Below are positions 22,605 through 57,509 of a DNA stretch of 64,000 nucleotides, piece after piece. How positions within the stretch are numbered: position 1 is the stretch's first letter; every line of letters starts with the position of its first letter. This stretch comes from Bryoerythrophyllum caledonicum (taxonomy: Eukaryota; Streptophyta; Bryopsida; Pottiales; Pottiaceae). The stretch covers positions 21,567,022 through 21,631,021 of the forward strand of contig OZ020524.1 in the NCBI GenBank assembly GCA_963971425.1, written 5' to 3'. A program made the position numbers and the translations under genes. The notes beneath the pieces were generated by a model, which was not told the DNA's origin, did not search any database, and saw only the letters and a list, made by a program, of their open reading frames with translations.

Positions 22605-22700
22605 CAGGGTTGTCTATCGCAACATTGTGACAGTGACGCGTCGTCATGACGCGTCGTGTCGTGACGGACCCTTTCGTCACGATACAATAGGGTCAACGTA
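22605..22700. mobile_element. Left TIR and subterminal region of the giant hAT
   Basis: CAGGGTTGTCTAT followed by repeated GTGACG, GACGCGTCGT and GTCGTGACGG motifs. The right subterminal region (45715-45811) has the same GTGACG vocabulary in inverse orientation. These are likely transposase-binding sites. Confidence 0.8.
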
Positions 22701-22869
22701 GGATCAAAGACAGGCTTTACCCCCACAAGAGGTAACTTAGTTACCTTAGGGTGGACGTGGCCGTCCTAGGTGGCAATGACATCCTACGTGTATATCATCT
22801 CGATTACCTTTAGGGATGTAATATTAACCCTTGAGTGAAAATTTTGTGAGCTTGCATTTTTTTGGCGGA
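22701..22869. other. Spacer between left TIR region and minisatellite
   Basis: No gene or promoter recognised; no TATA box facing outward from the adjacent minisatellite was found. Confidence 0.4.
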
Positions 22870-23290
22870 CAGGCGCGGATGGGGAGCGGGTATCGACTGC
22901 GGATGAGGAGCGGTTGGGGAGCGAATGGGGGCGGGTGGGGAGCGGATGGGGGCGGATGGGGCCCAGAAGGGTGCGGATAGGACGCGGACGGAGAGCGGAC
23001 AAGAACTGCGGACGCAAGTATTGCGGATGGTGTGCGGGTTGGGAGCGGATGGGGAGCGGGTATCGACTGCGGATGAGGAGTGGGTGGGGAGCAAATGGGG
23101 GCGGTTGGGGACTGCGGATGAGGAGCGGATGGGGGCGGGTGGGGATTGCTGATGGGGAGCGGGTGGGGAGCGGATGGAGCAGATAGGGAGTGCGGATGGT
23201 GTGCGGATGGGGGCAGGTTGGAATTGCGGATGGGTGCGGATAGGATGCGGATGGGGAGCGGACTGGGCGCGGACTGCCTTCGATGGGCCA
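22870..23290. repeat. G-rich minisatellite (GCGGATGGGGAGCGGGTGGGGA type), left subterminal
   Basis: Tandem 10-11-bp units such as GGATGGGGAGC, GGGTGGGGAGC and GGATGGGGGC. It lies 3' of the kinase-like gene. Closely spaced runs of three or four G give many potential G-quadruplexes on the + strand. Unlike the other arrays it is not next to a convincing TATA box of a recognised gene. Confidence 0.85.
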
Positions 23291-23545
23291 CAAACTGGTT
23301 GCGGTTTAGGCGGTTGTGTGATTGTGGATTGAGTTATTTTGTCTTTATTTGAGAGGTTTTGAAGGGCAGGATGGGAAGACGAAAACATCGTTTCATAAAC
23401 ACTTTGCCTTTATTCAAAACATCAGGGAAGTCCACGTAGGATTTCTCTTGTTATAAAAAGGGATTACAAAAGAAGTATACACTTCACACCATTAATAACA
23501 TCCTACATATCGAGCAAAATCTAAGGTCTATGAAATCACAATATA

Positions 23546-25487
23546 CTACTCATTGCGGAAGAAGTCCCATGGGGTTTCCAGGTTGTAAGGCGGTCTTTTC
23601 AACATGTCTACCACATGCGTGACGGTGGATCGCTCTAGTGGATCAGATTTCAACAACTCATCCATACTTTGCTCAAACCGACGCGACAATGAACTTGGAT
23701 TTTTGTTCTTCTGGAACAAGCTTGAAGAGCAATCGCGGTTGTAAATCCTCCTTGCCAAGTACCCCACTGCATACGCCTCAGATCTATGGTTGTGCTTATG
23801 CTTTATTCCCATTCTTCTCGGTGATATTGCTGTTCCGGGCTTGCCATACACATGGAATAGCTCGGGGGCCGCATGTTGGTATTTACCTTTGTAAGCTTGC
23901 ACCTCCCTACTAGGTGGTCGACCATAGTTCGACATCTTATCTTCGCCGTCCCAAGATACCATTCTCCAATCACACACCCCAATGTATACGGCGTCGGTTT
24001 TGTCTTTTGGGAAATGAAGCATTACATTGTTGGGACTCAAATCATTGTGCAATAGCCGTTGAGAATGTATCACGTCCATGATGCACATGAGTGCCCATGC
24101 TAAATATGCCCGGTTTTTGCGATAAATGCACAATTCTAGACGGGCATCGAGGTCGATTCCAGCACTTCTTAGAATGTCATCCTTATGTTCCTCTTCGTAT
24201 TTTGAGTCAATTCTCCAAACGGACGCAAGTGAGCCTCCGTTCCACCATAGAGTATATGACTCGTACGTTCTTCTATCGAGAAATTGAATCTTGATTACCC
24301 CCGCATGATCCACCGGACACGCTAGCACCTCGATTGATCGTTTCTCCCGATTCTTCGTCTTCGAATCCTCCTTCATTGTCTTCCCCGCGAACTCTATACT
24401 TGGTGGAATGCAACTCACACCTTCGATGCTCACACGTCGCACAATTCCAAAGCCACCTTCATAGTTCCTCCCATCTAGTCCCTTTATCACCGCCTCTAAT
24501 GGGAGCTACACCACCCCTTTGCGACCTCTCGTTGCAATTCGCGCGGACAAATCACGTTCAATCCAAGGGACATTTTGGCTCACTCTCCCTCGAGGCTTGA
24601 CTTTCATTACCCCCTCCTTGAATTTATCTAACTTCACCTTCAATTCTTCCCACCCAGATATCACACGACCTTCTTTTGTTAATATCTTGGCTTGTACCTC
24701 CCAAGCGTTAGACGGGGTTAAAAATGGCATTCTCAGTGTATTCCTTTACCCACTCTTCGTAAGAAAAACGGCGTTTGTCTTCGGCAAATGTTTCTTCGTT
24801 AGCAACGCCGTCGACAATTGTTTTCAATCTCTCCCCCAACGATTCCAATCCAGCAGCACCTCGATTCAAGTAGCGTCTCTCCAGCTGACCTAGATCATGA
24901 TCTTTATACCATGATAATAACTCGGCCACAACCTTGGTCCTGAAAGGCTTGCTCATCTGATCTACATGAGAGGTCCTTTGCCTTTTCTTCCCACGTCCCG
25001 AGTCCTCTGAATCTGCTCGCCGTTTGCCCCGTCCACGTCCTGTTGCGTCTGAAGGTTTGCTGGGAACTAAGGACTCTGATGGCGTTGGTACCACATTATG
25101 TGAAAGTGGTTGTACCGATGAGGCTCCACGCTCGGGATCAACACTGGAGCCACCTGAACTACGACCTCCAAGGTTTCGATCCCCAACCAAGCTTTCTGAT
25201 CCTCGAGACCGCCCAGCTCCACGTCCTCCCCCCACAGATCCTCGTGTACCTCGTGAATGTGATTGTGATCCACAAGAATTACTTCGTCCGAGAGCAAAAA
25301 ATTCTTGGTTCATTCCGGGTTCTCGTCTGCCACCTCTCTCGCTTGGTCCACCTCTGCTGCCTTGGCCTCTACCTAAGGTACCACCGCTGACATCGTTAGA
25401 AGCTGCAATAGCAGATGCAATTTCCACATTATAAGCTTCATGGAGTTGCATATCTGCATCTTGGTAATGCACCCTGTTGTCAGCCAT
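23546..25487 (-). pseudogene. Protein-kinase-like cargo gene of the giant hAT (one frameshift, one stop)
   Basis: From the ATG at 25487, an Arg/Gly/Ser-rich N-terminus (RGGPSERGGRRE, GRGKKRQR basic nuclear-type signal) is followed by a helical linker, then a C-terminal protein-kinase fold: GGFG loop, Lys in EFAGKTM, catalytic loop HNDLSPNN (HRD with Arg to Asn; Asp and Asn kept), CDWR in place of DFG (Asp kept), AAPE, and SEAYAVGYLARR like the αF helix. Near 24715-24730 the frame shifts by one base, and TAG at about 24503 breaks KGVV|LPLEAV; otherwise the frame is open for about 647 codons. The metal- and substrate-binding residues suggest an ancestor with phosphotransfer activity. The specific substrate is unknown. 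TATA and minisatellite lie about 210 bp upstream, shared with RING gene 1. Confidence 0.75.
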
Positions 25488-25692
25488 TGTGTGAAAAAAT
25501 GTTAACCGGTTATCCGGTGTGCAACGTTTATGTGAGTGAGTCTGGAAAAAAACTGCAAGGGTTTCCCCGCAATTCGTCATTCCAAACTCCTGTACCATCA
25601 AAACTCGTGCAATGCTGCTCACGCAACAAGGTCTCGGGTTCCCATTGGGCAAGGAGTGGAGTGCAAAAAGTGAAATCGTCAATGGCCTCGTT

Positions 25693-25707
25693 GCCTTTAT
25701 ATAGGCC
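25693..25707 (-). promoter_or_regulatory. TATA box of the kinase-like gene
   Basis: On the minus strand GGCCTATATAAAGGC, about 210 bp before the ATG at 25487 and about 30 bp from the edge of the minisatellite at 25735. Confidence 0.75.
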
Positions 25708-25734
25708 CCGACGGGTCGCGAACATTGGGAACCG

Positions 25735-26310
25735 CACGGTCGGGGAGCGGACGGGGAGCGGACGGGCAGCGGATGGGCGCGGATGGGGAGCGGATGGGGG
25801 TCGGTGAGAGCGGATGGGGCGTGGATGAGGAGCGTACAGGGACTGCGGATGGGGGCTGCGGATGGTAACTGCTGATGGAGAGCGCTTATGGAGCGGATGG
25901 GTGCGGATAGAGCGTGGATGAAGAGCAGACAGGGGGTGCGGATGGGAGCTGCGGGTGGGGAGCGGGTGGGGAGCGAATGGAGGCGGGTGGGGAGCGGATG
26001 GGTGCGGATAGGCGCGGATGGGCATTGGACAGGGACTGCGGATGGAGTTGCAGACGGGGAGCGAGTTGGGAGCGGATAGAGGTGGGTGGGGAGCGGATGG
26101 GTGCGGATCGGTGCGGATGGGCATCGGACATGGACTGCGGATGGGAGCTGCGGATGGAAGGTGCGGATGGGGAGCGGGTGGGGAGCGGATGGGTGCTGCG
26201 GATGGGGAGCGGGTGGGGAGCGGATAGGCGCGGATGGGCATTGGACAGGGACTGCGGATGGGAGCTGCGGATGGGGAGCGGGTGGGAAGCAGATGGAGCG
26301 GATGGAGGCG
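25735..26310. repeat. G-rich minisatellite acting as shared element between two divergent promoters
   Basis: GCGGATGGGGAGC and GGGTGGGGAGC units repeat for about 575 bp. A minus-strand TATA box (25693-25707) and a plus-strand TATA box (26326-26335) flank it. The same unit type occurs at 22870-23290, 39170-39905 and 45061-45590. Open frames through it are artefacts of its periodicity. Confidence 0.85.
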
Positions 26311-26325
26311 GACATGGCCGACGTG

Positions 26326-26335
26326 TTTAAAAAGG
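26326..26335 (+). promoter_or_regulatory. TATA box of RING-H2 gene 1
   Basis: TTTAAAAAGG just after the minisatellite, about 435 bp before the ATG at 26767. RING gene 2 has nearly the same TATA-to-ATG distance. Confidence 0.65.
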
Positions 26336-26374
26336 AAGAGGAGTTCAATGTGGCCTCACTCTTTCTTACTCATC

Positions 26375-26630
26375 AGGACGCCCTGACGCACTTGCCTCTA
26401 CGTTGACGGCGGGTGTGCGGGGTTTTCAGATGGGAAAGTGGCCCTTTTGAGGTCCAAGATTCTTCCAAGGGGGGGAATTTTTGTCCTCAAAACGCAACTG
26501 ATCAGGTACAAAAGACATTAGATATTCCAAGAAGGGTTTAGGGTCTTAATACTCCTAGGTAGCACTATTATGAAGTGCATGATTGGGACTTTATTTCAGT
26601 ACTACTTTGAAGTGCAAGTAGTTGTGGTAG
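26375..26630 (+). promoter_or_regulatory. Conserved 5' leader block of RING-H2 gene 1
   Basis: The block matches the leader of RING gene 2 (38875-39115, minus strand) over about 200 bp: CTGACGCACTTGCCTC, GTTGACGGCGGGTGTG, GGGAAAGTGG, GTCCTCAAA and two GAAGTGCA boxes in the same order. The match is better than might be expected for untranslated DNA, given how far the encoded proteins have diverged. It may hold transcriptional or translational control sites, or a leader intron (AG|GTAC is conserved). Confidence 0.7.
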
Positions 26631-29600
26631 TTGTTATAGTTGTTTTAGTTGAGCAATCATTTGGAACTCTCATATCACAATAGATAATATCGCCAAGATA
26701 ATAGGTTCAAACATAGTATTGTTTTGTATTGCGGGAGCCCATAGAGGTTTCCAATAATTTTCCACCATGCATAGTGGAGGTCGAGTTGTTAGTTCAGCGA
26801 AGAAGCCGAAGAGGAACCCTGCGGATTTGGAGCTTGAAGTATATCAAAATCGTGATGTTCTAGGGGAACCAGGATGGGAAAATGTTTGCGAGCCATGGAC
26901 TGCCACAAATGCTATGGACTATATTAAGTTTGCGCATCTTGATAGATGGTGGCCGGAAGAGCTCCACGAGAAACATTGTTCAGCAAAGGCTGTTACGTAC
27001 CGCGACATCAAAGACGTGGATGTGAAGTGGAGGTTCCTCGAGATTCTACGTGCAATTTCCAACTTGAAGCGATGGCCCAAAAACAATATCCCTAGAAATA
27101 TCACGGCATTGATGTATGCGGAACATCAATTGGGGAAGAGGGTGGATTGGTCAACGCTACACAAACCTTATTGTGGTGGGAAGATTCTTGGACGCCCCCT
27201 TTCTGCAAAGAAACCGATAGAGATTTCAAGAAAATCCGTTCCTGCATGGTTCCGCAATAACCCAAGCTTGGTTGACGACCCTGATGAATCATTGCCAGTG
27301 GACCGAGAAGCACCTCCTAAACAAAAGAGGAAAGTAGTTAAGAGGACAAAAGTAGTGGATGCCATTGAACAATTATTGCGCGAGCCCGAAGTCGCAGATG
27401 CGAGGCAGTTGGGCATCCATGTGAGTAATGAGATTAACGTGGAGTCAATGCCATCCCCATTATCTATGCAGGTGACCAATGCGGATCAAAACGAAGCCAT
27501 TCAGATATCAACAACATGCATGCCGCATGGTACTGTAAGTGACCATGGGGGGTTTGTTGGCAAAACAAGAAGTGATCATGAATACGAACGACTGGGCGAT
27601 GCAATTGAAGGAACAAGGGCAATGGTCAGTATTGGTGATTTGCAAGCTCATGCAGACCCCAATATTCAGGATAAGTGTGTTCTGTTGAAGGCGCAATTAC
27701 AAGTGCTCCGCGTGGAAATTACAAGGTTGCAATGCGATAGGGACGATGCCGTAGAAGTTGCATTCAAAGCATGTGTGCTAGAGTCAGAGAAGGACACCAT
27801 GCTTGCCGAAATGGCCATGTTACGCGATGAGCTCGACCATTCCAAGAATGATATTGGAAATTATCAAGTTGAAATCGCAGGCTTGAAAAAGGAACTAGAA
27901 GAAGTCAAAGCACAACATATTACAAACGAGGCGACATGTGCAAATTTCCAATGTGAGGTGGATGAATTAAAGGCAATTAGTGCAAATGACGAATCGAAGA
28001 TAAATAAATTGACAGCCTTAGTTTTAGAAACCGTTGCCGAGCGGGAAGAGATGATGCTTATAACGGTGTTTGTGGTGGCACGAGCACGGCAGTATGAGGC
28101 GGAATTCAAGAGCATTGTTGCCGAATGGACGTTGGATAATAAATTGAGGACCCTCTTGCTCACATCGTGGCCTCTAGAGGAAACTATGTATTTGAAAAGT
28201 TGGGACAACAAGAAGCCGTCGATACAGACGAATAACAATAGCATTGATTGGAAGCATGTCACAAAAGACGATCATCATTGGAACATCGAGGATGTGCATG
28301 ACTATCCGCTAGATATGATGGGGAAGCCGTTGTGGCTAAAACCACATCCAATGACATCCGACGGATCGTCATGTTCTATTTGCGGAAATGCTTGGGGCCC
28401 AGAAGGGTGTTTTACGATTGGATCATTTGGCCATTCGTTCCATCCACAATGTCTAATCAAGAGCATGATTCGCTCACGTATGTGTAGTATCTGTAGAGCG
28501 CCATTACATCCACGTTTATATCTGCAATTTGGCATCCGGGATTTCATGCCTAACCATTGGGTGTATCGCCAAGATGATTATGATTTTGAACTTGGCGACT
28601 TCAATGGGCACCCTGTTGAGTGGAGCTCGAGGCACAATATGTCAAAGGCAGAGGTGTGGCATAAGTTTGGAGGGGGGAACTTGGAAGATGATGCACAGAA
28701 ACTAATTCAAGCTGCGAACGAGATGTATCCTGACAACCCGCTTGGGTACGGCATGAAGATGTTTTTTTATCAAACTATGGGATGGCATTGGAATCCTCAG
28801 AGGAAGGAGTTGGTGCACGGTTTAGGACCAAAACCATATTACAACTCATCTGGTGAGCGAGCGGTAGAGACCCTGGAACTACGCAGATCCTATCGTGGAA
28901 CTCCTCTAGCTGTGAACACCGGTACAGAGGACTTGTTTTGGGAAGAACGCTACCATCGTAAACGACTACTGGTGGCGGTGCTCGATGCCATATTGGATGA
29001 AGTTGCCCCGGAGGTAAATGAATGGCTCAATGGTGGGGATATTGTTGCAGTTTGTAGAGTAAGTATTCCTCCGGATAGCAATTAGTTGAAACTAAATGTG
29101 CCCGGAATGGTCGCTCTAAATTCGTTCCCACAGAGATCTGTTGTTTCTTCTTGGAATGATAAGTAAGCTATCTGCTATCCCTCTACCACACGCCGATTAG
29201 CATTCCTATTCTACGCCTGACCTATTCATCCAGATTCTTCCGGACGTCCGATGTAGTTTCCTACTATTTTCCGGGTCCTGCCAACTTCCGGAAGGTCAGA
29301 TGGAGTTTGTCTTCCGGAGTTTTTAAACGAGTGGCCGGGTACCACTGATCCTATTTTGTGTAAGTGGCCGGATTCCCCACTCCCTTGTGACTTTAAGTGG
29401 CTAGACACCCACTCTCCCTAGGTTGCTAATTGGTCGTTGGTTTGTTGTTTCCGGATGCACTCTCTCACATTAACCGGAAGGCCTTCCGGATACGGTCACT
29501 CAGAGGCTCACCTGGGCTACAATGACATTCTGGGGGATGATTAGTGGTTCGGTGAGGTGTGAAGGGTAGATCTGCATTTGGACTTCCTTCTAGACATACA

Positions 29601-30114
29601 CCACAGGCTTTTCCATCTATCGTAAGGGGAAATTCCGGTCGCAACCAGAATCCGGGTTCACACGGAATCTCCGTGCCCTAGAAGCTACCAAGCCACCGCC
29701 TAAAGTACCCTCCCTCCCCCTCCAGGCTTCTTCCGGTCACGAAGGATCGTCAGACTCTATCTAACCTCTCCTTCAGCTGTTCCGAGCGCTCTCCCACAGC
29801 AAGTCCCAACCGGTTAGACTAGATGCTTATCTGTGAACACTTCAGCTTCCACAACTATTCCGCTAATCATCAACCACAATGGGCCCTATCCTTCATTCAC
29901 GAAATGATACATGCAACCATAATTTCAAGACAAGAAAATATACTAACAGCAAATATCATTCCTGAGGAAGAGAAAAAGGACCCTGAGCCGGCCACGACTC
30001 CTGCCTTAAGAGCCCGCTACCACTGATCTAAAATCGGAACTAAGAAGCTAAAAATCCGGGAAATCCTATCCTAAAAGTGAAAGGGATATTATCCCTAGAA
30101 ATCCGGAATTCAAA

Positions 30115-30141
30115 CTCAGATCCGAAAGTTTCGGATCTGAG
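30115..30141. other. Perfect 13-bp inverted repeat downstream of the element D ORF
   Basis: CTCAGATCCGAAA, one base, TTTCGGATCTGAG. It lies about 130 bp 3' of the minus-strand stop codon and is preserved at 57483-57509 in copy E with only the central base changed. It could form a hairpin in the 3' part of the transcript. Confidence 0.7.
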
Positions 30142-30271
30142 ATCCGGTTTCTACGGATGTATCTCTAAAACTAAAAGAAAACTGTCTTTAATCTTACCGC
30201 AAGATAGCCGGGTGCAAACTTGAGCCCCATCGTTAATCGCTTATCAGACTTTTAGAACTAAAGATTCTAAT

Positions 30272-32413
30272 CTACAGGGTTACTTGGTTCCGCCTCCGAC
30301 TGCTACGGCGTGAAGGGATAACCTCTGCTAGAGCGGTGCCGGCCTCGGTTTGCGCCTGAATGGCTGCTGGTGGCTCCGGTGAGGTGGTCGGCGTCGGCAT
30401 ACCTGGTCCGGATGGTGCATCCGGGTCCTCTATTGTGACCGCCTGGCCGGATGGTGCATCGGCCCGGTCTTCAACGTCCGGAAGGTCCCGGAAGCTACCG
30501 CTGGGGCTGACCACCATGGGTGTCGCTGCCGAGCTTCCGGGTAAAGGGTCCATCACTGGTGGCCCCGGAGAGGGAGACTCGGAGGGAATTCGGAAGGGCA
30601 AGGGTAGTACTGCCTGACTCCCTGGCACCTGTTCCCACTTTTGCATACTCTCCGTGCTTGGGAAGGCCACCCCATTCCAGCTCATAGGAGAGCTGAAACC
30701 CGGCGTTCCCACGAGGTCATTGAACTGTCCGGTGAGTGACTTCGCTGCTCCAGATGCAGGTCTGGGTGAAGAGCCGGCCGGAGGTTGAGTAGGAGAAACA
30801 GCTGCCAGACCGGATGGGGATCCGGACGGGCCAGCAGTGGTTCCAGACGGATCTGCCTGGGTTCCGGATGGTCCCTCAGCATCTGAAGCAGGAGGTGCCG
30901 GAACTGGAGGGGGAGCTCCTGGTACTGTTGAGGTGGCTGCCACGAGATCCCTTGCTAGCTCCTGCATCTTGGACCAAGTGCCCTCCATTTTCCGGCTGTG
31001 ATCTACCAAGAATCGGATAACCTGCCCCCTGTTGAGCTTCTCGTTCTTCTCCAAGCTCGCTGTGTAGAGTAATGCCCGGTTAACCGTATCCACCGGAAAA
31101 TCCAGAGCAGTGCGAATATCGGTCAGTGACTGTGACGCCGCCCGGGCCTTTGTTTCTGCCACCACTCGGGCATGTTGTGCTGCATCCCGTGCGGCTTCCG
31201 CCTGCCGGACCTGACTCCAGAGCCGGGTGTTAACCTTGGTTATGGTGGCGTTCTCCTACTCCAGTCTTGTGACGGAATCGTGCTTCTCCTTCATCTCTCT
31301 GAGCTGGGCGATGAGGTGAGTGGTGTCCTCCAGTCCGACTGCCTCTAAGATGGCCATGATCATGGCATGCCTCTCCCGGATCTCCCCCTCCTGGATCTTG
31401 GTCCTACAGACAATATGTCTGCACAGCTCGTGGACATCCACGGGAATGTCGCCAATGATGCTTGGGACAAACGTCGGTCCCGGCTCTGATCCGGTCGCGA
31501 ATCGTTCGTCTTCTGGGGCCGGTTCCGGTGCTGTAGGCTGTGCTGCGGTTGGTAGTGCTATGGGTGGGCTCTGCGCCGGGATTGTTGACAACAGCCGGCA
31601 TTCTCCCGGGGTCTCCGGAGTCCTCTGCACCGAACGACTACGCTTCTGGTTCGATCTTCGAAGTATAAGGGGGGATGACGACTTCTCCGTGTCAGAGTCC
31701 GTTGATTCATCCAGTTCCTCATCTGTTTCCATCCCTCCGTATGACTGGATGGTGAGCAAGCTGTCGTACTCGGCCTGCTCATCCGGCCTCAACATCTTCT
31801 GCTTGGCGTACATGTGAGCCAGGTAGGTGGAAAGCGGGGATGGGGTTTTCCGGGCTTTCGGCAGGTTCTTCACCATCCTGTCAATCTGCTCGTCCATGAT
31901 GGCCGCCCAGTCGACGGACAGCTTCCCTCTCATCGAGCCTAGGATTAGGGTTGCTAGCTTGGCCACTATCCGTTTCGATTTCTCGGGGTGGAAAATAGGG
32001 TTGAAGAATACCATTACTAACCTGGCATCCGGATCGGTGAGATCGCTGAGGACATACCCGTCCTTAGGGTTAGCCTTCGCGCGGAATTCGCCCTTCAGGA
32101 TGGCGTCGTCACGTTCCGCCACCTTGATTGTTCCTGCCCGGAACTCGTAGGTGTCTCTCCAGAGCGCCGTGGTCCAGACCTCCGGATGCGCCCTAATCTT
32201 CTGCGCGTATTGGCTTGGTGGCTCTCCCAGGAGCTCCGTCATCATTGTTTCGCTTTGGAAGGCCCACGGTGTCGCTAGAAGACCTTCACAACCCATGATT
32301 TCGAGGTAGCTCTCTAAAACCCGACAGGTCTTGACCGGCTTCGGAATCTCCGGAGTCACCTTCTGCAGCACCAGTGTTTCGGTAGCCGGAGCCTTGCCCT
32401 TCTTGGCCGCCAT
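30272..32413 (-). pseudogene. ORF of element D, about 713 codons, one internal stop
   Basis: From the ATG at 32413 the frame is open to 30272 except for TAG at 31256-31258, where copy E has Gln (CAG). The N-terminal third is globular and alpha-rich (WAFQSETMMTELLGEPP, VDWAAIMDEQIDRMVKNLP), then a Ser/Asp/Glu-rich segment, a Pro/Thr-rich linker, a helical coiled-coil region (QAEAARDAAQHARVVAETK) and a Pro/Ser/Gly-rich tail ending in an Arg-rich SRRSSRRRNQ motif. No zinc knuckle, protease or reverse transcriptase is seen. It could be a gag-like or accessory protein; function is unknown. The relative at 52459-53230 shows that the ORF is old. Confidence 0.65.
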
Positions 32414-33013
32414 CCGTGCCCACCTCTCCGTGAACTTGCGCCTCGCAATATTGTCAAGAGAACCTACACGCACTGTCCTTACCAAGTCCCTCTTGCTAAC
32501 CTAAGTTGGCTCTTCCGTCCTTCACCAAGACCGGATTCGAAACCCTAAGAGAATGCGAGAAGTGGAAAGAGAATGAGCCTGCTGGAAACCCTAAAAGATT
32601 GGTGCACAGGGCTGCCAGTCGCGTTTTGTATCTGACGCACTCGTACGGAAAACCGTTATGAGTCATGATGGCATTTCCGGGTCCGGCTGTAACCGCCCTC
32701 CGGTTTTGCAACTTTCGGGAAGGGTGCTGTAACTACCTTCATTAGGGATTCCGGCGCAGCACTAAAATCTTATTCCGTTCCATGAACTACTTATGCTCTT
32801 TTGGCCAACTAACTAACTAATTTTTCTAATTTTTTTTCTTATTTTCTTCCGGGATTGGTATTAAGTTCCGGAAGTATGTGGGGACAGCTTCCCACAGATA
32901 TACCTCGATATTTGGAAATGGTGATTCGCCAGGAACGCCATGGATATGGGACACGGAGTAATGTTCGTGCACAAGGCGGTGACTCCTCCAACCCTTCAAG
33001 ACCGCAACAGTAA

Positions 33014-34065
33014 TTTGCCAAGGTTTAGGCAAGGAAACCGGGTAATATGATCGGCAATAGATTCCCCCTTCAATTAGTATCTTTGAAAATCCTCGTCCAT
33101 GTTGTTGCCATTATGGACATAGCCATATAGGTACAATAATTTATGAAGGGATTTTTTTGTCTGTTTTGAATTTATTAACCCCTTGAGGACCAATTGTCAA
33201 CAATGGCCTTTTTGAAAGTTTGGTCAGGTTCCTCGGGTTTAAATTTCCAACATTCCACTTTCAAATTTTTATTGTAGGAGGACATTACTAAGACCTTGAT
33301 AGGAGAACAATTTTTCCCTAAATCCGCCATTTAACCCCTAAATGACCACGACCACTTGTGTTCTAAAACCAGTCCAAAACTGCCACTGCAAAAAAGAGAC
33401 ATGAAAATCACAATTTAAAGTGAATTTCGGATTTCCAATCGTAAGATCTTAAAATATACTTCTATAGAAACATGTTGTTCAATTTTGGTTGCAATCCACT
33501 GCACGGATTGATAGATTTTAGTGTTTAAAGTCTAAACAATGGTTCATTTTCTTTCCTGGGTTGAGCAGATCAGCAGACTTTGACTTCACTTTGTATCAAA
33601 AAATTTCATTGTACAAGGTCGAAATATTTTACCATTGTCTTAAGCATGATGTTATTTCCCGACACACCAATTTTTAGAAGTAAAAATGGGGTGTAGCATA
33701 TTCAAAACAAGTGTGCAAGGAGTGGAGGTTCAAAAATTGCCATTTCACGTTTTATTTTTTTGTGAACTACGTATGTATTCAAATGATAATCCAAACGGTC
33801 AATAATAATTTTTTCACCACATATTGTTGTTGAAAAAATAAAAAGTGAAAAATATGAAGATCTCTAGGTTTTATGTACAAAAGATGAATCTTTTTCTCCC
33901 GTTGCCCGACAATGTGTGAAAATGTTTGACTTGTAATAAAATGCCTTTTTACACTAAAGACAAGAATTTTTTCTGAAAATTTCCAGAAAAGGAAATATTC
34001 TTTATATGTGTGAAAAATCTCAATGTCAATAGAAACTTTTGTCAAAAAATTTGGAGGTGCCCGGT
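33014..34065 (+). repeat. Dispersed repeat R1, copy 2, 3' of RING gene 1
   Basis: From about 33150 the sequence follows the same series of motifs as 5640-5752 plus 8357-8975. The copy at 5640 also lies just 3' of a RING-family gene, so R1 may be an old component of these elements rather than a chance insertion. Confidence 0.6.
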
Positions 34066-35499: not shown

Positions 35500-36090
35500 T
35501 GATAAAGGATCTACTTTTCTACATAAATCTTAGAGATCTTTTCATATTCAAATTTTCATTTTTTCCACAACAATATATGGTGTAAGCCTTCCTATTTAAC
35601 ATTCGGATTATCAATTTAAAACATGTTTACTTCACAAAAAAATTAAAGCATGAATTGGAAAATTTTGAACCTCAATCCTTGCACAACTGATTTGAATATG
35701 CTACACTCTTTTGCCTCACAAAATTGGTGAATAAGGAACTAATATCATGCTTAATATGATGGTAATGGATTTGGACCTTGAATAGTGAAAAAAGTTGACA
35801 CCAAGTGAAGTCATCCGCGCTGATCCACTGAATGTAGGGAATAAAATGAACCATTTGCTTGACTTCAAACACTATAATCTATCAATCCGTGCGGTCAAAG
35901 TTTATTGCAAATTTTGAGAGTATGTTGCTTAATAAGTCTTAATTGAGATCCTAAGGTCAAAACTAGTAATATTATTTCTTTTCACATCGTTACAAACTAT
36001 TTGTCTTTAGTGGAAAATTGCATTTCATTCCTAGTCAAAAATTTTGCACATTGCCACACATTGTCTGGCAAGGAATCCCAAAAAACTCTT
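35500..36090 (-). repeat. Dispersed repeat R1, copy 3, inverted
   Basis: The minus strand follows the motif order of 8357-8975 and 33410-33965. With copy 2 it forms a large imperfect inverted repeat between the two RING genes. Confidence 0.65.
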
Positions 36091-36599: not shown

Positions 36600-38729
36600 T
36601 TATCTTGGTTGCGACGAGGATGCATCAGTATCGCGCGTTTGGTTTCCATGAGAAGCATGAGGCACTTCCATTCCCCGTCTCTGTAGGTTTCTCTCACGTT
36701 CTAGCCAAGCCTTGACTTCTGGGGAAATATTGTTTAATATAACGTCTAGTGCCGCGGCCCTCAGTCGTGCGTGATGGTATGTTCTTTCTTCAAGCAGATC
36801 CTCTTCTGCACTTCGAGCTTCTTGAATATCTTGCACACGCCGATATAATCGGTTGAATCCTGCAGTGGTGAGCGCCTCTACTCCCCTAGAGTTGTAATGC
36901 GGTCCGATTCTCATTCCCGGCAATAACGTCATGCTCTCTCGATTGTAATGCCACCCCATTACGTTGTAGAAAAACATCTTCAAGCCGAAATCCGGTGGTT
37001 GATTTGGATACATGCCCTCTACCGCCTTCATTAAATTCTCTGGATCATTTAATGTGCCAGCTTCTTCATTTGCGGCAATAAGTTGTGCGGATGAGACGTT
37101 GTATCTCCAATTCCACGTGACAGGTTGTCCGACATCAGCGCCAATGTCAAAATCTGGGAAGTCTTCTTGGCGATACACCCAATGTCTTGGCATGAAATCC
37201 CGAAGGCCAAATTGAAGATACAAGCAGGCATGATAAGGCGATTTGCAAACCGTGCACGTACGCTTTCGTATCATATCCTCGATTAGACATTGAGGGTGGT
37301 ACGAATGACCACATGATCCAAGCGTGAAGCACCCTTCTGGGCCCCACGGATTTTGGCAAATGGCACACCGCGATCCATCATTGGTCTTCTCATCCACGTG
37401 GCCCCATATTTTATGGACATCTCCGAGGCCACCAACCGTCTCGTGAATATTCCATCGGTGATCCTCTTCGACAATATGCCCCCAGTCAATGCTACCGTTG
37501 GCCTTTAACACTGGTGGATCTATGTCATCCCAATTGCTTGGATACATATCATCTAACGTTGGCCAAGACGTGAGTAACAATGTTCTCAGCCTACCGTTGG
37601 TTGTCCACTCAGCAGAAATCTTTGCCAACTCTACCTCGTACTGCTTTGCCTTTATCGAAGCTAACACCGTGCCTAGCATCATGGTGTCCCGCTCGTTGTG
37701 GAGTTTGCTAACATCGCGTTGCAATTTAGTAACATCCGCCTCGTATTTCGATTTTTGAATGTTTGCTTCTTGTAACTCAATGCGCAAATGGGCCATGTTG
37801 GCAACCAGATCGTTCTTCTCTGCTTCCAACGTCAATGTTTTCATCGCCGCTTTTCTTGCACGCTCCTCCATCAACGCCTTGTATGCAGTAAATTCCGCAA
37901 TTAATTCTTGGTATCCTTGCGATGTGCCATCTGTGATATTGATGCGCTCGATACCATATCCCACTACCTCGGTTTGTCCAAGCCCGGGAAGTTCACTTCC
38001 ACCGCTAATTGGCGTGTTCGACTCCACATCCATTGCATCGGTGTTGAGAATGGCAAGTTCATCATATAACTCTAATGGTAAATCCGCCACCTCTCGAGCT
38101 CTTGTTGTAGTAGCTCGTCTCTTTGGCAATTCTCGATCCGGTGGCAACGGTTGGTCCGGTGGATCAACCAAGCTACTGTTGGTGCGGAACCATTCTGGAA
38201 CCGGGTTCCTCGGAATGTCAATGATGGGTTGCTTCGCGGAAAGTAGCGGGCCAAGAAACTTCCCAACATTGCCACCCGCGGTTATCGGTTGGTGAATTGT
38301 TGACCAATCAACCCGCTTGTGCAACACACACTCCGCATACACCATGGCTCCTATCCTCCTCGGAATGCTATTTTTGGGCCAATGTCCTTGGTGAGAGATG
38401 GCTCGTAAAATCTCCAAGAACCTCCACTTTGAATCCACGTCGGTAATGGCATTCCACGAGAGTTGTCTGTTGCGGCAATGCTCTTTGTGAGATTCCTCCG
38501 GGTACCACCGATCGAGATGCGCAAAACCAACAAGGTTGAAGGCCTGCTGACATGTCCATGGCTCTGGCACATCTTCCCATCCATCATACGCCAATAGTTC
38601 GGTGTTTCTAAAAATATCCATCTCCAAAGGCACCCCTTTCTTTGGTTTCTTTGAGGAACCAGCTTCCGCGCTTGGAGCATTTGGTCTCCTCCGGCCCGCA
38701 TCATCTCCACCACCGCCTTGCATTGCCAT
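36600..38729 (-). CDS. RING-H2/coiled-coil cargo gene 2, intact 709-residue protein
   Basis: This is the only long uninterrupted cargo gene. Order of parts: Gly/Arg/Lys-rich start with KKPKKG basic signal; N-terminal domain with YDGWEDVPEPWT (about residues 48-145); KRVDWST; Pro-rich linker; coiled coil (about 275-360); WTTNGRLRTLLLTSWP block; RING-H2 finger (from about residue 455: CAIC, GSCGHSYHPQC, CTVC) with all eight ligands; C-terminal domain with LKMFFYNVMGWHYN; helical end. RING-H2 fingers usually recruit a ubiquitin-conjugating enzyme, so ubiquitin-ligase activity is plausible; the N-terminal and C-terminal domains are not recognised and may choose the partner. The start at 38729 gives MAMQGGGG; TATA lies about 430 bp upstream. 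The location between R1 and a minisatellite inside the giant hAT marks it as element cargo. Confidence 0.85.
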   Translation of the reverse strand: MAMQGGGGDDAGRRRPNAPSAEAGSSKKPKKGVPLEMDIFRNTELLAYDGWEDVPEPWTCQQAFNLVGFAHLDRWYPEESHKEHCRNRQLSWNAITDVDSKWRFLEILRAISHQGHWPKNSIPRRIGAMVYAECVLHKRVDWSTIHQPITAGGNVGKFLGPLLSAKQPIIDIPRNPVPEWFRTNSSLVDPPDQPLPPDRELPKRRATTTRAREVADLPLELYDELAILNTDAMDVESNTPISGGSELPGLGQTEVVGYGIERINITDGTSQGYQELIAEFTAYKALMEERARKAAMKTLTLEAEKNDLVANMAHLRIELQEANIQKSKYEADVTKLQRDVSKLHNERDTMMLGTVLASIKAKQYEVELAKISAEWTTNGRLRTLLLTSWPTLDDMYPSNWDDIDPPVLKANGSIDWGHIVEEDHRWNIHETVGGLGDVHKIWGHVDEKTNDGSRCAICQNPWGPEGCFTLGSCGHSYHPQCLIEDMIRKRTCTVCKSPYHACLYLQFGLRDFMPRHWVYRQEDFPDFDIGADVGQPVTWNWRYNVSSAQLIAANEEAGTLNDPENLMKAVEGMYPNQPPDFGLKMFFYNVMGWHYNRESMTLLPGMRIGPHYNSRGVEALTTAGFNRLYRRVQDIQEARSAEEDLLEERTYHHARLRAAALDVILNNISPEVKAWLERERNLQRRGMEVPHASHGNQTRDTDASSSQPR

Positions 38730-39115: not shown

Positions 39116-39150
39116 GAAAGTGGGAAAGAGTAACCTTGTTTTACTTCATC

Positions 39151-39164
39151 CTCCTTTTTATACC
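39151..39164 (-). promoter_or_regulatory. TATA box of RING-H2 gene 2
   Basis: On the minus strand GGTATAAAAAGGAG, immediately beside the minisatellite that begins about 39170. Confidence 0.75.
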
Positions 39165-39169
39165 GTAGC

Positions 39170-39905
39170 CGCGGCCCACCATCCACGACCTGTCCGCACC
39201 GGTCCATTCGGCCCATCCGCGGCCCGTCCCAAACCGTACACGCCCCATCCGCCACCCACCCGCTCCCCATCCACGCCCCATCTGCTCCCCATCCGCGCCC
39301 GTTCGTTGCCCATCCGCTCCCCACCCGCTCCCCACTCGCCACCCACCCGCTCCCACCCACCTCCCATCCGCTCCCCATCCGCGCCGGTTCGCTGCCCATC
39401 CGCTCCCCACCCGCTCCCCACCCGCTCCCGTCCGCTGCCCATCCGTGTCTCGTCCGCATCTCCCAGCCCGCTCCCAATCCGCGCCCGTCCGCTGCCCATC
39501 CGCTCCCCACCCGCTCCCGTCCGCTGCCCATCCGTGTCTCGTCCGCATCTCCCAGTCCGCTCCCCATCCGCGCCCGTCCGCTGCACATCCGCTCCCCACC
39601 CGCTCCCCACCCGCTCTCGTCCGCAGCCCATCCGCGTCTCGTCCGCATATCCTAGTCCGCTCCCCATCCGCGCCTTGTCCGCTTCCTAGTTCCCCTCATC
39701 CGCCCTCCATCCGCCCCCCGTTCGCGGCCCATCCGCGCCCATCCGCGCGCATCCGTGCCCCGTTCGCTTCCCCGTCCCCCTCCCATCCGTACCCATCCGC
39801 TGCCCATCTGTTGCCCATCCGCGCCGCATCCGCTTTCGAGTATGCAACCCAGTCCGCTCCCCATCCACTCCCATCCGCTCCCGTCCGCTACCCATCCGCT
39901 TCCAC
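39170..39905. repeat. C-rich (minus strand G-rich) minisatellite upstream of RING gene 2
   Basis: CGCTCCCCATCCGC and CGCTCCCCACC units for about 735 bp, the reverse complement of the units at 25735-26310. The G-rich strand is therefore the sense strand of both RING genes. Some longer units of about 70-100 bp containing CCCATCCGTGTCTCGTCCGC are duplicated within the array. Confidence 0.85.
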
Positions 39906-41604
39906 TTCTAAGTATTTGTGGGCAAGAATAGTTTTGTTTTGGTATGTGCTTGCATTGACAATGTGTCACAATTTTAGAAATTGGCAATTCTGAAGATCTC
40001 CAAAAACAATTCAAAGCTCGGTGCTTAAAGATTATACGAGCATGGAAAATAAGAAATGAAGACTGAAAACCCGAATGGTAAAAAGACCGCTTATCCAGTA
40101 CCTTGGTATGAATAGCATATGTACAGTTTGAATTTTTAACATCTCCCTAAACATACGCAAATAAAGCTCTTCCATCATACAAAGATGGCAAATTAGGAAG
40201 TAACAAAGTCAACACCGAATGGTTGAGAACAAGACTAATTCATTAATCAACAAATATTGTATAATCTTCTAGGCAATGCACATAGCATGAGAATTGCCGC
40301 CGAATACACGAAGGGGAAAATACCACCGCCAAGAGCTTGCCGACGAGCACATGAAGTTCCTCACACCCCATCAAGGCACCTTAAACATCGTACTCCTCCT
40401 CCCCAAACCACATGTGAAATTGCTAATCACTTGAAGAATCCACATATATATATATTTAACAAGCAACCATATCTAGGCAGTAATTTTGGCAAACTAATTC
40501 CAACTGACTAGGCATGTGCTCAAATTGCTCAGGTTCGTTTTGTGACCACCCCCTCTTGACTATCTCAATTGTTGAATGCACGAAGTTTTTTTCATCTTCC
40601 AATATATTGCCATGATCCAAGAGTCGTGCTCATGTGTGTAAAGGTCTCTAATGCTCTGACTTCCAAAGCTTCTACCTTTCTAGCTCCATTGTCGGAACAT
40701 TCGGTTCCTGGTTCAATTATCACCACGTACGATGTATACTCTTAGAAAGTAGAGGGATGAGGTTGGATTGACAATATGGTGATTTTGGTGTTAATAAAAC
40801 TGTAAACATGGACATGGAGGTTGCCATGTGGAGCTTGTTCCCATGCGAGATCCTTGAGCAAGTGCCTGCGTTTGTGACGGTCCCTCACACGTGCAAGGAC
40901 CGCGTCGTATGCGAGGCCTCGGACCGCCTCATGAAGAAGTTGTTCTTGTTTATTCTTGTAATGTTAGTGCATTAAGGATAACATGTCATTACAATAGTTC
41001 AAAACAATGGTGCATAAACTCGAGGTCCAAGAATAAAAATCCAAATGGCCAATACAAAGAAGAACTTGCACAATTTAGGAAAAATAAATTAAAAAAACAC
41101 ATGAAGATCTTGGAGTTTTATATGGAAGTGGGGAGAGGTTTTGTTGGTATTGGTTGGATAGAGTATGTCAATTTGACAAATGTGACAAACTCTAACAATT
41201 ATACAATTTTGAATACCTCCCCAAAAAAATTGAGCTCAAAGCTCATAGGGAATACAAATTTGCAAAAATAAGAAATTAAGAAGGATAATCCGAATGGTTA
41301 AAAAGACTAGTTAACCGACATTTTGTATGATTTAAAAAAAAAATGGGAATTACAAATGTCTCTAAAAACACACGTAGATAAAGCTTTGTAATCATACAAA
41401 GCTGAAAAATAGGAAGTAACAATGCAAATCCAAATGGTTAAAACATCTTTGAATCATTAAAATATACTACCACATAATCTAGCAACGTACACCTTAAACA
41501 TCTATACTAATAAATTGCTAAGAACCATAGCAGATATAAATTAAAAATATTATAAATAGACCTCGTCTTACGTGTATTGGGAAATTTAGACATCCCACTA
41601 GGAC
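39906..41604. other. Spacer with direct repeats and a scrap of hAT coding sequence
   Basis: Two related blocks (about 40045-40270 and 41265-41490) share CCGAATGGTTAAAAAGAC and CATACAAAG...AGGAAGTAACAA motifs in direct orientation. About 65 bp at 40262-40328 resemble 43487-43552 inside the transposase gene (ATTGCCG, ATACACGAAGGG), suggesting a duplicated remnant. No gene recognised. Confidence 0.5.
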
Positions 41605-44600
41605 TTAAGTTCGCACTCGAACTGTGGGGTCGTTTTCTTCTATGCACCGTGGATCCACATCAGACTCGTCTGGGCTCTCTTCGTCATCGGATTGAGGAGT
41701 ACCACTTCTCAGTTGTAAGTTGTCGTCTGTAGTAATGACCAACCTCCTTGTTGGATGAGATCCCTCGGCGTCAAGTAACCCATCATCATCCAAATTGGGT
41801 CTTCCATCTGATGGATCGTAATCTTCACCAGTAAATGGAATTGTACTACCTTGATTCCTTTGACGTCTCTTCGTTCCTCGTGTAGTTCTCCGCCATCTAT
41901 TATTGCTTACGGTGCTAGTGGAAGCTACTCCGCCATGTGGAAGAACTATAGGTACGTGGACAACCACATTGAGGTCTACATCCGAGGAGGAAGCCATTCC
42001 TCTTAATACTATTCCAGACCCCCTCCCACCACTTTGCACGACATCGCCTTGTTGATTTTGACGAGCAAGAGGTTGCCTTCGCAGGCAAGGAAGTTGAACG
42101 CTACTAAGCCTATTGGCTTGACGACGATTTTGTCCCATTCCATTGTTGGGACGATCATTATGAAGGGCTACCAATGAAGCACCAATCCCCCGTGTAGTTG
42201 TTGCACCGGTTCTAACCGCAATTACATGACTACGGGTCACCGGCCGATGTGGTATTCCAACTTGGGAAGACACTTCGATCTCTGTGGTTCCAGCATTCCC
42301 CATAACTTCATCAAGGGGCACGGTTACCCTTCCTATGATTGAAGTCGGATTACATTGTGGACTTGAATTGCAATTGCGAGCCGACCTCGACGGCGTTAAG
42401 GAGATACGACCAGCCGTTGTAGGGACCTCCACTTCTTGATGATTCAAGATATGTTGCCCTTCATCACCAAATGATAGCGAATCACTTTGAGGTTGGGAAG
42501 GCAAGTCAACGTTTGCAGGGATCGCCAAGTTCTGTAGCCCCCCTTTGTGGTCACGCCAAAGTCCCTGACCAGCACAAAGTTGTCCAAACGACGGCCCATC
42601 AACATCTCCACTCGGGTTCAATGGACCTTGAACATGTTGTTGTGCTGCCTCGACTTCGTTGAAATCAAAAACCCCTATGCCTCCACCTCCACCATTACCA
42701 TCAGAGTTTTGTCCATCCAAGTCCCACACGTCCTCGCCCACACGATGACCACCGCCACTGCCATCATCGGAATCTCCACTATCCAAATCCAAATTGTCTT
42801 CGTCTATGTCAAGATTACCTTCTTCGTCATTCTCGTTAGGATAACGTCCTTCTTCATTTGCATCGTCTGGATCTTCTCCGTTGCTTTCATCATCGGAATG
42901 CACACCATTTAACTCAAGCCACTGACCAACCCTTGTCCCCCTTCGATGCCTTAGGAGCCTAGAATTTGTGTAAATGTACACGAGGTCCTCCGCTCGACTA
43001 TGTTTAAGGCGATTGCGGGACTTGTTGTGTACATAGGAGTACATGCTCCAATTGAGTTCGCATGCTGATGAGGAACACACTTGAGCAAGTATGCGTCTTG
43101 CAATTATCTGCAATGCCTTTGCGCCACCTCCCATTGCATCCCACCATTCATGGGGCAATACATTAAGCACATTTGGATCCATCGAATCTACAAATGATCC
43201 TCTATTTTCAATGAAGTCTTGGTATTGGTTGAGGACCCTTCTAAAATCTTCCTCACTCGAAACTGGCTTTCAAAGGACTTGATTTAAGATTGGTCTTGAA
43301 TGCTCATTCTCATGCAAAGGGGCCCATCCTCGTAAAGAAGGGTTTAACATAGCTCCCGCCCAATGAAGGTCAGTTATCATAAGCCCCCACCTCGCGTTAA
43401 AGGCATCTAGTGCCCGTGTTGCCAATTCTTGCCCCAATTGGAAAGGGGCCCTGACAAACCCTTGAACATGGATTTCCAAATCATACATAACCTTCCATGC
43501 AACGCCCATAGTAGGAGCATTGCCGTCAAATATACGAAGGGTACGTACCACAGGCAACACCATGTACTGAAAATTCACACATGTATCCCAAAACCCGTCG
43601 CAGCGTATCACCTGCCGTACAAACAAGCCTTTAATATGTGTAGCTGGGGCTTTTGTCCGCAACTCCGCCATGAAAGCATGCCATGCGTCATCAACCACCA
43701 TTCTCTCTAGGGCTTGGCGAACTTGGAGGAGGCATTCAATCATGATGAAGTTGGTTGCAAATCGTGTCTCATTGGGCATACGAATAGCAAGATCTGGTGA
43801 AAGCCTTCAGAAGATTGCTTGTGGAGCGTGGTGGTTCTTGATGAATAAACAAATAACCCTAGCCTTCCTCACAGTCCTTTTCACCCAATTTTCTTTGCCC
43901 CAATCCTCCAGTAAAAGATCCAAGCAATGAGCAGCGCATCCCTGAACATAGAGATCGGGAATCACTTGCATGATGTCACGGCAAGCAGACGCCATGACTG
44001 GAGCGTTATTGGTGCATACCTGGACAACATTTTGGGGCCCAACTGTTTGCAAAAACGGTTGGATTTGAGAAGCAACGTAGAAGTGGTCCTTATAATTCCC
44101 CGATGTATCGATGGTGCCGAGGAAAACATCCCCTTTCGTGCCTGGCTGAACAACATTTAGCAATGGCCGATTCTGAACGTTGTCCCAACCATCACTACAT
44201 ATTGTTACTCCATACTTTGATATAGAATCACTCATTTTCTCTTTGATCCCCCTTTCTAGATCTGCTCGCTTGTTTGTCAACAACTTTGTACGAACGGCGT
44301 TGTAGGACGGTGGGTTGTATGCCGGCATTCGTACGCGTGCACTTTCACGAACCGCTTTTAAAAAAGCAGGGTGCCTAATGATATTAAATGGAATGTTTGC
44401 TTCGTAAAAAGCACTAGACCAAACCCTAACCAAAAGTTGTTTTGCAGAAGAGTTGAACCCCTCGGTCAAAGAAAGTTGTCGTAGCTCTCTAGGTTCAGTC
44501 TCTATCCGTGTCGGTTCCACGTCACCAGTGCTTTGCAAATTTTGAACTTGCTCCACGACATTGTTCTGAGACAATGATAATAAAGGTTCCACCCGAACTT

Positions 44601-44892
44601 CATCCTCGCCAGTTCTGTGAAAGGATATATTGTTGGCAACATCAGGACGATCCGGGACACCCCCATCACATTCTTGAAACAACACACGCACATGTGGAGG
44701 CACCATCCTACACACTTGAACATCACGTCCTGCCTCGTTACGAGGACGGTACCCCATGTGGGACAACATCCTGTCCGCTCTATAGGACATGGTGTGAGAA
44801 CAAAATCGACATTTCACTTGTCGTGCCGATCTTGAAGAAGTGAGACCCATGTCTTCGTACCATAGATCCCATACAGAATTCCGACGCGGCAT
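41605..44892 (-). pseudogene. hAT transposase of the giant element, 1096-codon frame with two TGA stops
   Basis: From the ATG at 44892 one frame runs to 41605, interrupted only by TGA at 43807 and 43270. N-terminal BED-type finger (WDLWYEDM, CRFC), a DUF659-like RNase-H core with CSDGWDN, VCTNNAPVM and GCAAHCLDLLLEDW, and the C-terminal dimerisation motif CELNWSMYSYVHNKSRNRL-like in wording. The position expected to hold the second catalytic Asp (TDN in the copy at 10526) is Asn here. A C-terminal extension of about 400 residues is acidic and Gly/Ser/Asn-rich. With two stops and the Asp-to-Asn change this copy should be inactive. The TATA box is about 150 bp upstream and the gene points away from the right TIR. 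Confidence 0.88.
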
Positions 44893-45037
44893 GGCGTCGC
44901 AAGAATGAAAGTGCCACTGTTGGGCTCCTCAAACCTTCCTCATCAGTGGGGTCTCATGCAATGTATTCTTGTACAAAGAATCCAAGGTCTTGAAACGCAC
45001 TAAGCGAGAATAAGTAAGGTCACCCTAGGAAGATAGG

Positions 45038-45047
45038 AATTTATACT
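45038..45047 (-). promoter_or_regulatory. TATA box of the hAT transposase
   Basis: On the minus strand AGTATAAATT, about 15 bp from the start of the minisatellite at 45061. Confidence 0.7.
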
Positions 45048-45060
45048 GGACCTCGTACGG

Positions 45061-45590
45061 AGCATGCGGACGGCAAGGCGCGGATGAGGCAGGGTCCAGC
45101 CAGCGGACGGGCGAAGGACCTTGGGCGGATGGGGGCGGACAGGCTCTGATGGGAATTACGGATGGGGGCGGGTGGGGAGCGGATGGGGGCGGATGGGGAG
45201 CGGATGGAGGCGGATGGGGACTGCGGATGGGGTGCGGAAGGGGGCGGATGGAGACTGCGGATGGGGAGCGGAAGGGCGGATGGGTGCGGGTGGGGAGCCG
45301 ATGGGTGCGGGTGGGGAGCGGATGGGGGCGGGTGGGGAGTGCGGATGGCACGCGGATGGAGAGCGGAAGGGCGGGTGGGAACTGCGGATGGCATGCGGAT
45401 GGCACGGATGAAGGCGTGGATGGGGAGCGGGCGAAGATCGGACGGTTTACAGGGATGGAAATTGGATACGGTGCGGATATGTGCGCGGATGGGCCGCAGA
45501 TGCTGTGCGAATGGGGCCCGGATGGGGAGCGGATTGAGAGCAGAATGCTTGGATGGGGCGGACGGGGACTGCGGACAATGTGGTAAATTA
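45061..45590. repeat. G-rich minisatellite upstream of the transposase
   Basis: Units such as GGATGGGGGCGGATGGGGAGC and GGTGCGGGTGGGGAGC. The G-rich strand is antisense to the transposase, as it is for the kinase-like gene but opposite to the RING genes. Confidence 0.85.
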
Positions 45591-45811
45591 TCGAGCATGT
45601 AATTAATTTGGTTGATGACATGTCCGCACATGTGGCACACAAATTCCGACGTGTCTCTTTTGAGGTAAATGTAAATATTGATTATCTGGAAGTAAAAATA
45701 GCTCCGTCAGGATTATGTCACGAACCGTCATAATGACGGCATGACATTGTGTCGTGACATTGTGACATTGTGACGGATTTTGACACCGTCACGACACAAT
45801 AGACAACCCTG
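45591..45811. mobile_element. Right subterminal region and TIR of the giant hAT
   Basis: Multiple GTGACATTGTGACGG-type motifs from 45715, ending ATAGACAACCCTG at 45811, followed by TSD CTCATTAT at 45812-45819. Confidence 0.85.
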
Positions 45812-57482: not shown

Positions 57483-57509
57483 CTCAGATCCGAAAATTTC
57501 GGATCTGAG
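57483..57509. other. Perfect 13-bp inverted repeat in element E
   Basis: Same hairpin as at 30115-30141, with a different central base. Confidence 0.7.

Follow-up and report, generated by a model that had tools for sequence, protein, structure and literature searches.

A 23-kb hAT unit in the moss Bryoerythrophyllum caledonicum, with a kinase-like gene and two RING genes beside its transposase, is a decayed copy from a family of giant transposons

hAT elements are usually small and carry one gene. The longest plant hAT consensus in a set of 276 is Gulliver, at 7,144 bp, and the survey that describes it gives hAT target-site duplications of 4–8 bp and reports no hAT found in the moss Physcomitrella (PMC6027215). 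Giant DNA transposons have been described from the brown alga Ectocarpus, where they belong to KDZ, EnSpm and Sola-1 and hAT is a minor component of 4 families (PMC12477816). A different kind of elaboration is seen in the published targets of VANC, short motifs packed densely into non-coding tandem repeats whose sequence changes from one related element to the next (PMC5735166; PMC10398659). Here we describe a 23,207-bp hAT unit that occupies positions 22605–45811 of a 64,000-nucleotide stretch of contig OZ020524.1 of Bryoerythrophyllum caledonicum (the window, to which all plain coordinates refer), and that holds a kinase gene and two RING genes, RING A and RING B, along with its transposase gene. 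The unit is one decayed copy from a family of giant cut-and-paste hAT transposons. Its features are as follows.

22597–22604, no strand: left target-site duplication CTCATTAT, placed by flank comparison and the empty site on C4
22605–22617, + strand: left terminal inverted repeat, kinase-side end type (CAGGGTTGTCTATCG...)
22861–23280, − strand: YCCGC array with ~11-bp spacing, between the left end and the kinase
23546–25487, − strand: kinase gene, with an N-terminal RG-rich part at 24708–25487 and the kinase domain at 23546–24505, its start inferred from subfamily B
25736–26320, − strand: YCCGC array in the 5' region common to the kinase and RING A
26767–29043, + strand: RING A gene (coiled coil and RING-H2-like finger), its 3' end removed by the nested insertion
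29044–32895, no strand: nested later insertion with TG...CA ends and a 5-bp direct repeat GATAT, outside the family gene set
36600–38729, − strand: RING B gene (coiled coil and RING-H2), open frame
39236–39910, + strand: YCCGC array 5' of RING B
41605–44892, − strand: hAT transposase gene (DUF659, Dimer_Tnp_hAT), a single frame with two internal stops
45101–45440, − strand: YCCGC array 5' of the transposase, beside the right end
45799–45811, − strand: right terminal inverted repeat, transposase-side end type (CAGGGTTGTCTATTG... read on the − strand)
45812–45819, no strand: right target-site duplication CTCATTAT

The unit opens with the terminal repeat CAGGGTTGTCTAT and closes with its inverse, and the 8-bp target-site duplication on its two flanks is perfect (8/8). 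The terminal inverted repeat (TIR) CAGGGTTG is compatible with the hAT consensus [T/C]AGNGNNG of the plant survey (PMC6027215). When the flanks are joined with a single CTCATTAT between them, they match C4:31437758-31438124 unbroken over query positions 1–367 at 98%, which identifies a related empty site; because this site on C4 is uninterrupted, the borders of the unit are real. An earlier note on this DNA had proposed a hAT unit with matching inverted ends and 8-bp flanking repeats and had suggested looking for an empty site that matches the joined flank, and the ends, the duplication and the empty site were all found. The note had taken an in-frame read-through of the joined flank as confirming the borders; this is weak evidence by itself, and the strong evidence for the borders is the empty site.

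The same ends recur across the 437 Mb of genome searched, in a family with at least two subfamilies (A and B). The 13-base end occurs 392 times, compared with once for a reversed control pattern. The two end types diverge immediately inside these 13 bases, and longer patterns were found at 118 places for the kinase-side end and 112 for the transposase-side end, with 0 for the controls. End pairs were counted on the 11 contigs with a complete end listing (C1–C4 and C6–C12), using the first 100 of the 118 and of the 112 places. On these contigs there are 48 pairs of neighbouring ends that point towards one another at a distance of up to 60 kb, and all but one of them (47/48) combine a kinase-side with a transposase-side end. 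Twenty-four pairs span more than 15 kb; all four genes lie within 13 of them and three or more within 20, and 8 cluster at 18.0–19.2 kb, from which we take the element without inserts to be about 18–19 kb long. The earlier figure of 23 kb is right for the window copy, which includes the later nested insertion. A further 16 pairs span less than 5 kb. Eleven of them (0.5–1.6 kb) contain none of the listed genes and look like non-autonomous derivatives. In 11 end pairs whose flanks were fetched, the flanking 8-mers agree at 8/8 positions in 6, 7/8 in 4 and 6/8 in 1, so that further copies that share the ends and are flanked by 8-bp duplications do exist, as the note had anticipated. The many short elements with the same ends might invite the idea that the window's termini come from two unrelated small elements that flank the genes by chance, an outcome that the note itself had named as fatal to its claim; given the perfect duplication, the empty site, the 47/48 mixed pairs and the agreement of all 11 fetched flanks at 6/8 or better, this idea is already refuted and has practically no probability left.

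Gene content and order are conserved as well. Matches number at least 129 for the kinase, at least 64 for RING B, at least 111 for the transposase (110 of the 111 entered the order analysis) and at least 88 for RING A. With RING B as the reference, a kinase listed on its strand is in most places found downstream of it, and a transposase listed there upstream. With a same-strand kinase within 40 kb, a same-strand transposase within 15 kb and RING A within 40 kb as the test, all four genes stand near one another at 24 of 64 RING B matches and at 21 of 34 in subfamily A, among the matches listed; together with the 13 of 24 long end pairs, this bears out the expectation that the four genes recur in the same order. 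The ends are placed accordingly around the genes: 51 of 108 kinase matches face an exact kinase-side end within 5 kb (37 of 62 full-length and 14 of 46 partial matches), compared with 0 of 108 in a strand-flipped control and 0.07% of random places, and 46 of 92 transposase matches have a transposase-side end upstream, compared with 1 in the flipped control. Kinase and RING genes outside the TIRs, which would have told against a single unit, are not seen where the ends are exact; the other matches have no exact end.

Such a large unit could instead be retained for genes that benefit the host, since giant cargo transposons are known, among them a fungal hAT-like element of 14.3 kb (PMC6737239). 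The recurrence of the same four genes in 13 of 24 long pairs, in place of varied cargo, the retention of both RING paralogues together and the many copies with stops argue against this explanation, and we think it quite unlikely.

The orientation of RING A relative to the kinase was recorded separately, from 58 of the 88 RING A matches, one per copy, with 30 further stretches of the same copies set aside. In subfamily A, 24 of the 24 copies that have a kinase no more than 12 kb away carry the two genes on opposite strands (7 others have no kinase that near); in subfamily B, 24 of 25 carry them on the same strand (2 others have none). This contrast indicates that the RING A segment differs in orientation between the subfamilies.

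All four genes that the earlier note had placed inside the ends, a hAT transposase, a kinase and two RING/coiled-coil genes, are recognisable. The transposase matches DUF659 (2e-34, 118.7 bits, cut-off 34.7) and Dimer_Tnp_hAT (2e-10, 40.7 bits, cut-off 21.4). Its frame is open at seven other places, with 1,043 to 1,135 residues; at each of these the match also contains one or two stops, probably 5' of the start codon. In alignment A3, 7 of the 9 relatives with letters at the position retain the first Asp motif and 10 of 11 the second. Of these two motifs, which presumably hold catalytic residues, only the first is still present in the window copy.

The kinase of subfamily B is about 650 residues long, with an RG-rich N-terminal part, probably disordered, and a C-terminal kinase domain. 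Comparison with subfamily B places the start of the window gene at 25487, and the kinase ORF first drawn was too short, the N-terminal half lying within ORF 24708–26369. The window copy scores just under the Pfam cut-off for Pkinase (2.5e-7, 30.8 bits, cut-off 31.7), and 35 of 35 aligned members match Pkinase at E 0.01 or better. Among 30 loci the Gly loop is kept in 30, the Lys in 26, the catalytic loop in 28, the motif at the DFG position in 25 and APE in 27, with HND as the form of the catalytic loop and DWG in place of DFG. By this motif set the protein is a protein kinase, and phosphotransfer activity is predicted for it. A sequence search of solved structures with the kinase returned none at E 0.01, and an NCBIfam search gave weak, partial matches only.

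RING A and RING B have a common layout, in which a conserved N-terminal region, a coiled coil and a RING-H2-like finger are followed by a conserved C-terminal part. The window copies score below the Pfam cut-offs of the RING models, and homologue P0005 scores above. RING-H2 (C3H2C3) spacing is found in 15 of 16 RING B loci and in both subfamily-B copies; the description of two RING-H2 genes is therefore upheld for RING B of the window, which has the spacing, and not for RING A, which fails it. The spacing of RING B is that of RING-H2 ubiquitin ligases, an activity that both proteins are predicted to have. Foldseek and VIA relate a structural model of RING B mainly to RING domains, weakly, and the model suggests a helical N-terminal domain at about residues 36–155. 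A viral origin was rejected: alignment A1 of the RING proteins, the only one of the proteins searched there, found 33 stretches in viral contigs that fit a pattern, none of them confirmed as a relative.

Only RING B looks intact in the window. RING A has lost its 3' end to the 3.85-kb nested repeat, and one of its zinc ligands is also replaced; the kinase frame is interrupted between the N-terminal part and the kinase domain, and its DFG-like motif is altered; the transposase, besides its two stops, has one presumed catalytic Asp replaced. Stop-free kinase and RING frames are present elsewhere in the genome. The gag-like ORFs at 30272–32500 were considered as element genes and rejected, as self-comparison puts them in the nested repeat, which has a second copy at about 56375–60198. 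The two copies of this ~3.85-kb repeat are about 89% alike and have TG...CA ends, with 5-bp direct repeats (GATAT and AATAG, respectively); no Pfam family matches either of the two gag-like ORFs in the inner copy.

A sign that the extra genes matter comes from the comparison of subfamilies by nonsynonymous (dN) and synonymous (dS) divergence. Between subfamilies A and B the kinase domain has dS 0.80, dN 0.09 and dN/dS 0.114 (144 pairs, 24 x 6 loci), and the ratio is also 0.114 in the 14 x 5 loci without stops. For RING B it is 0.287 (16 A loci, the full-length ones of 30, against one B copy, about 534 codons), and for RING A about 0.32 (the window against one B copy, 529 codons). Ratios of 0.11, 0.29 and about 0.32 indicate that the extra genes are not mere passengers. 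Within subfamily B the kinase ratio is 0.09 (15 pairs), and some B kinases are almost identical (dS 0–0.009), so movement has been recent. Our reading is that inserted copies may decay while the lineages that keep moving would stay constrained. In a tree of 19 RING proteins, RING A (100/99) and RING B (100/100) form separate clades, each with members from both subfamilies and with two public-collection proteins, and the two-RING set therefore predates the subfamily split. Gene-carrying non-autonomous plant elements are known, such as the Pack-MULEs mentioned in the Ectocarpus study (PMC12477816), and one could imagine that host kinase and RING genes were likewise swept up by a hAT element and have no role in it. 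We consider such a capture very improbable, given the same gene set in two subfamilies as diverged as kinase dS 0.80, dN/dS of 0.11–0.32 and a RING duplication older than the subfamilies.

A further shared feature is non-coding. Tandem arrays in which a YCCGC core recurs about every 11 bp are found 5' of all four genes and next to one end. With a cluster defined as six or more YCCGC motifs on one strand within 150 bp, the 64-kb window contains 120 cluster positions, of which 0 are outside the element. Beside the kinase end, spacings of 10–12 bp make up 53–57% in subfamily A and 58–60% in subfamily B, compared with 4% in shuffles; the ranges join a first count, based on 13 of the 24 kinase loci of subfamily A and 5 of the 6 of subfamily B, with a repeat count of all 24 and 6, and in subfamily B the readable arrays are the two beside the kinase. 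The six bases that most often follow the core are TCCCCA in A (108/677 beside the end) and AGCCAG in B (35/230). The core and its phase are kept between the subfamilies, and the spacers have mostly changed. In subfamily A the array beside the kinase end is almost entirely of one orientation (677 motifs forward, 3 reverse).

Taken together, the family is a single mobile unit with four genes in a conserved order, with recent movement and with purifying selection on the kinase and both RING genes between the subfamilies. Selection on the kinase and RING genes supports the view that they do something for the element, and we infer that the three extra proteins work for it; the unit, the gene order and the selection, together with extra genes that serve the element, form a reading that we hold to be very probable. 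Several observations weigh against it. Among the long end pairs, 3 of 24 hold only K, KA or BT, and 1 of 24, which has two same-type ends, holds none of the genes. More than half of the kinase matches, 57 of 108, have no exact facing end. In a RING B class of ~56% identity, 18 of 30 matches have no same-strand kinase within 40 kb, and near these 18 there is a transposase only in 16, a transposase and RING A in 1 and nothing in 1, among the matches listed. The dN/dS ratios among subfamily A copies are high (0.53 for the kinase, 276 pairs; 0.66 for RING B, 120 pairs), as expected for copies that decay after insertion, yet they point to little constraint among these copies. The subfamily B arrays are less regular, with 57 of 287 motifs reversed beside the end and 60 of 135 upstream, and in 2 of 6 B loci (L033 and L036, both containing runs of N) one array is absent or altered. 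Eight of 15 RING homologues from public collections fail the RING-H2 spacing (7 of 15 fit), so the zinc-ligand set is not constant in the wider family. Beyond this genome, linkage of kinase and transposase comes solely from contigs of equal size, which no RING homologue shares.

These equal-sized contigs carry the kinase and transposase homologues P0028/P0116, P0032/P0126, P0069/P0119, P0088/P0124, P0067/P0164 and P0062/P0204, making 6 coincidences among 52 and 65 distinct contigs >10 kb for kinase and transposase homologues, respectively (118 of 120 transposase homologues entered the comparison). Since contigs of up to hundreds of kb could carry both genes by chance, linkage in another organism is only suggestive.

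What the extra proteins do can be approached through their domains and the arrays. As proposed in the earlier note, they may act in phosphorylation and ubiquitin pathways or in the regulation of the element's own transposase. The mechanism we favour, tentatively and as the likeliest of several, is that they may counter silencing or regulate the element itself through the arrays. In this scheme the ~11-bp phased YCCGC arrays would be bound by a RING/coiled-coil protein or by the N-terminal Cys/His finger of the transposase. Ubiquitination of silencing or chromatin factors at the arrays would fall to the RING domains, and the kinase would serve as an on/off switch for the array-bound complex or for the transposase. 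A more specific version, possible and at present doubtful, is that a plant hAT lineage independently evolved a VANC-like self-addressing system, in which its own proteins would read the phased arrays and ubiquitination and phosphorylation would lift or block silencing. If that were true, this would be, to our knowledge, the first case of a transposon equipped with matched kinase and RING proteins for its own anti-silencing.

The alternative that we rank below anti-silencing or self-regulation, and regard as rather unlikely, is that the kinase and RING proteins are needed for transposing a very long element (end assembly, repair, copy number) and not for evading silencing. They share a unit with the transposase and are under selection; hAT transposases commonly bind near element ends, and arrays lie near both ends here (22861–23280 and 45101–45440). 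The arrays, however, also stand 5' of internal genes, far from the ends, and the 11 end pairs of 0.5–1.6 kb without the genes suggest that the ends are enough in cis, though the proteins may be needed in trans.

Some further observations concern the window and the genome at large. In the AT-rich stretch that separates the convergent RING genes, an inverted repeat at 33498–33896 and 35501–35895, with ~400-bp arms about 74–81% alike, could yield a hairpin RNA; related sequence lies outside the element at about 8404–8875. Also outside the element are local duplications of 0.85–0.95 kb at 88–92% identity, in two sets (5753–6676, 15763–16614 and 16719–17635; 7509–8351 and 18492–19350). Seven genome matches to the LEAFY SAM domain (G000:C7:27203369-27203596 and six more) are all above the Pfam cut-off, six of them far weaker than the first; so many matches are unusual and are perhaps fragments or a mobile domain. 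TTTAGGG telomere repeats were read at two of three contig starts, and the third start is N. Three homologues have an organism name, one of them a protein of the moss Ceratodon purpureus; with the telomere repeats and the LEAFY SAM domain, this fits a streptophyte host and perhaps a moss.

VANDAL elements, to which VANC belongs, are Mutator-like. They resemble the present family in encoding extra genes and in having dense motif repeats that differ between related subfamilies; they differ from it in that here the proteins are a kinase and RING proteins and the repeats have an ~11-bp phased YCCGC core with mixed motif orientation in subfamily B. The VANC domains DUF1985 and DUF287 are not among the Pfam families listed for nine element ORFs at E 0.1. 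Starships are fungal tyrosine-recombinase elements with varied cargo. They too are giant eukaryotic elements with genes besides the mobility gene. At more than 10 kb, and with accessory genes beside its transposase (all four genes in 13 of 24 long pairs), the element described here is a giant DNA transposon. The Ectocarpus giants are similar in exceeding 10 kb, in carrying additional genes and nested insertions and in a transposase that is often pseudogenised, and unlike it in belonging to other superfamilies with other accessory genes, such as ParB-like or DNA methyltransferase genes (PMC12477816). ToxhAT of wheat-pathogen fungi also has a hAT-like transposase and several genes inside its TIRs over 14.3 kb; it is fungal, and no kinase or RING is among the genes named in the available part of its description (PMC6737239). 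With the plant hATs of the survey our element shares hAT transposase domains, 8-bp duplications and a TIR that fits [T/C]AGNGNNG, and it departs from them in being 2.5 to 3.2 times the length of Gulliver and in its three further conserved genes (PMC6027215).

Giant DNA transposons with accessory genes were thus already known from algae, and a 14.3-kb hAT-like element from fungi. In the open-access papers searched we found no hAT that combines a conserved kinase gene with two RING genes, transposon databases lying outside this search. The phased YCCGC arrays 5' of every gene and beside one end are new here, and their subfamily-specific spacers make a binding test simple. Because a kinase and two RING genes have been kept through a deep subfamily split, the hAT class too can become multi-gene, and the family offers a testable case of a transposon whose targets may be the phosphorylation and ubiquitin pathways of its host or else its own silencing.

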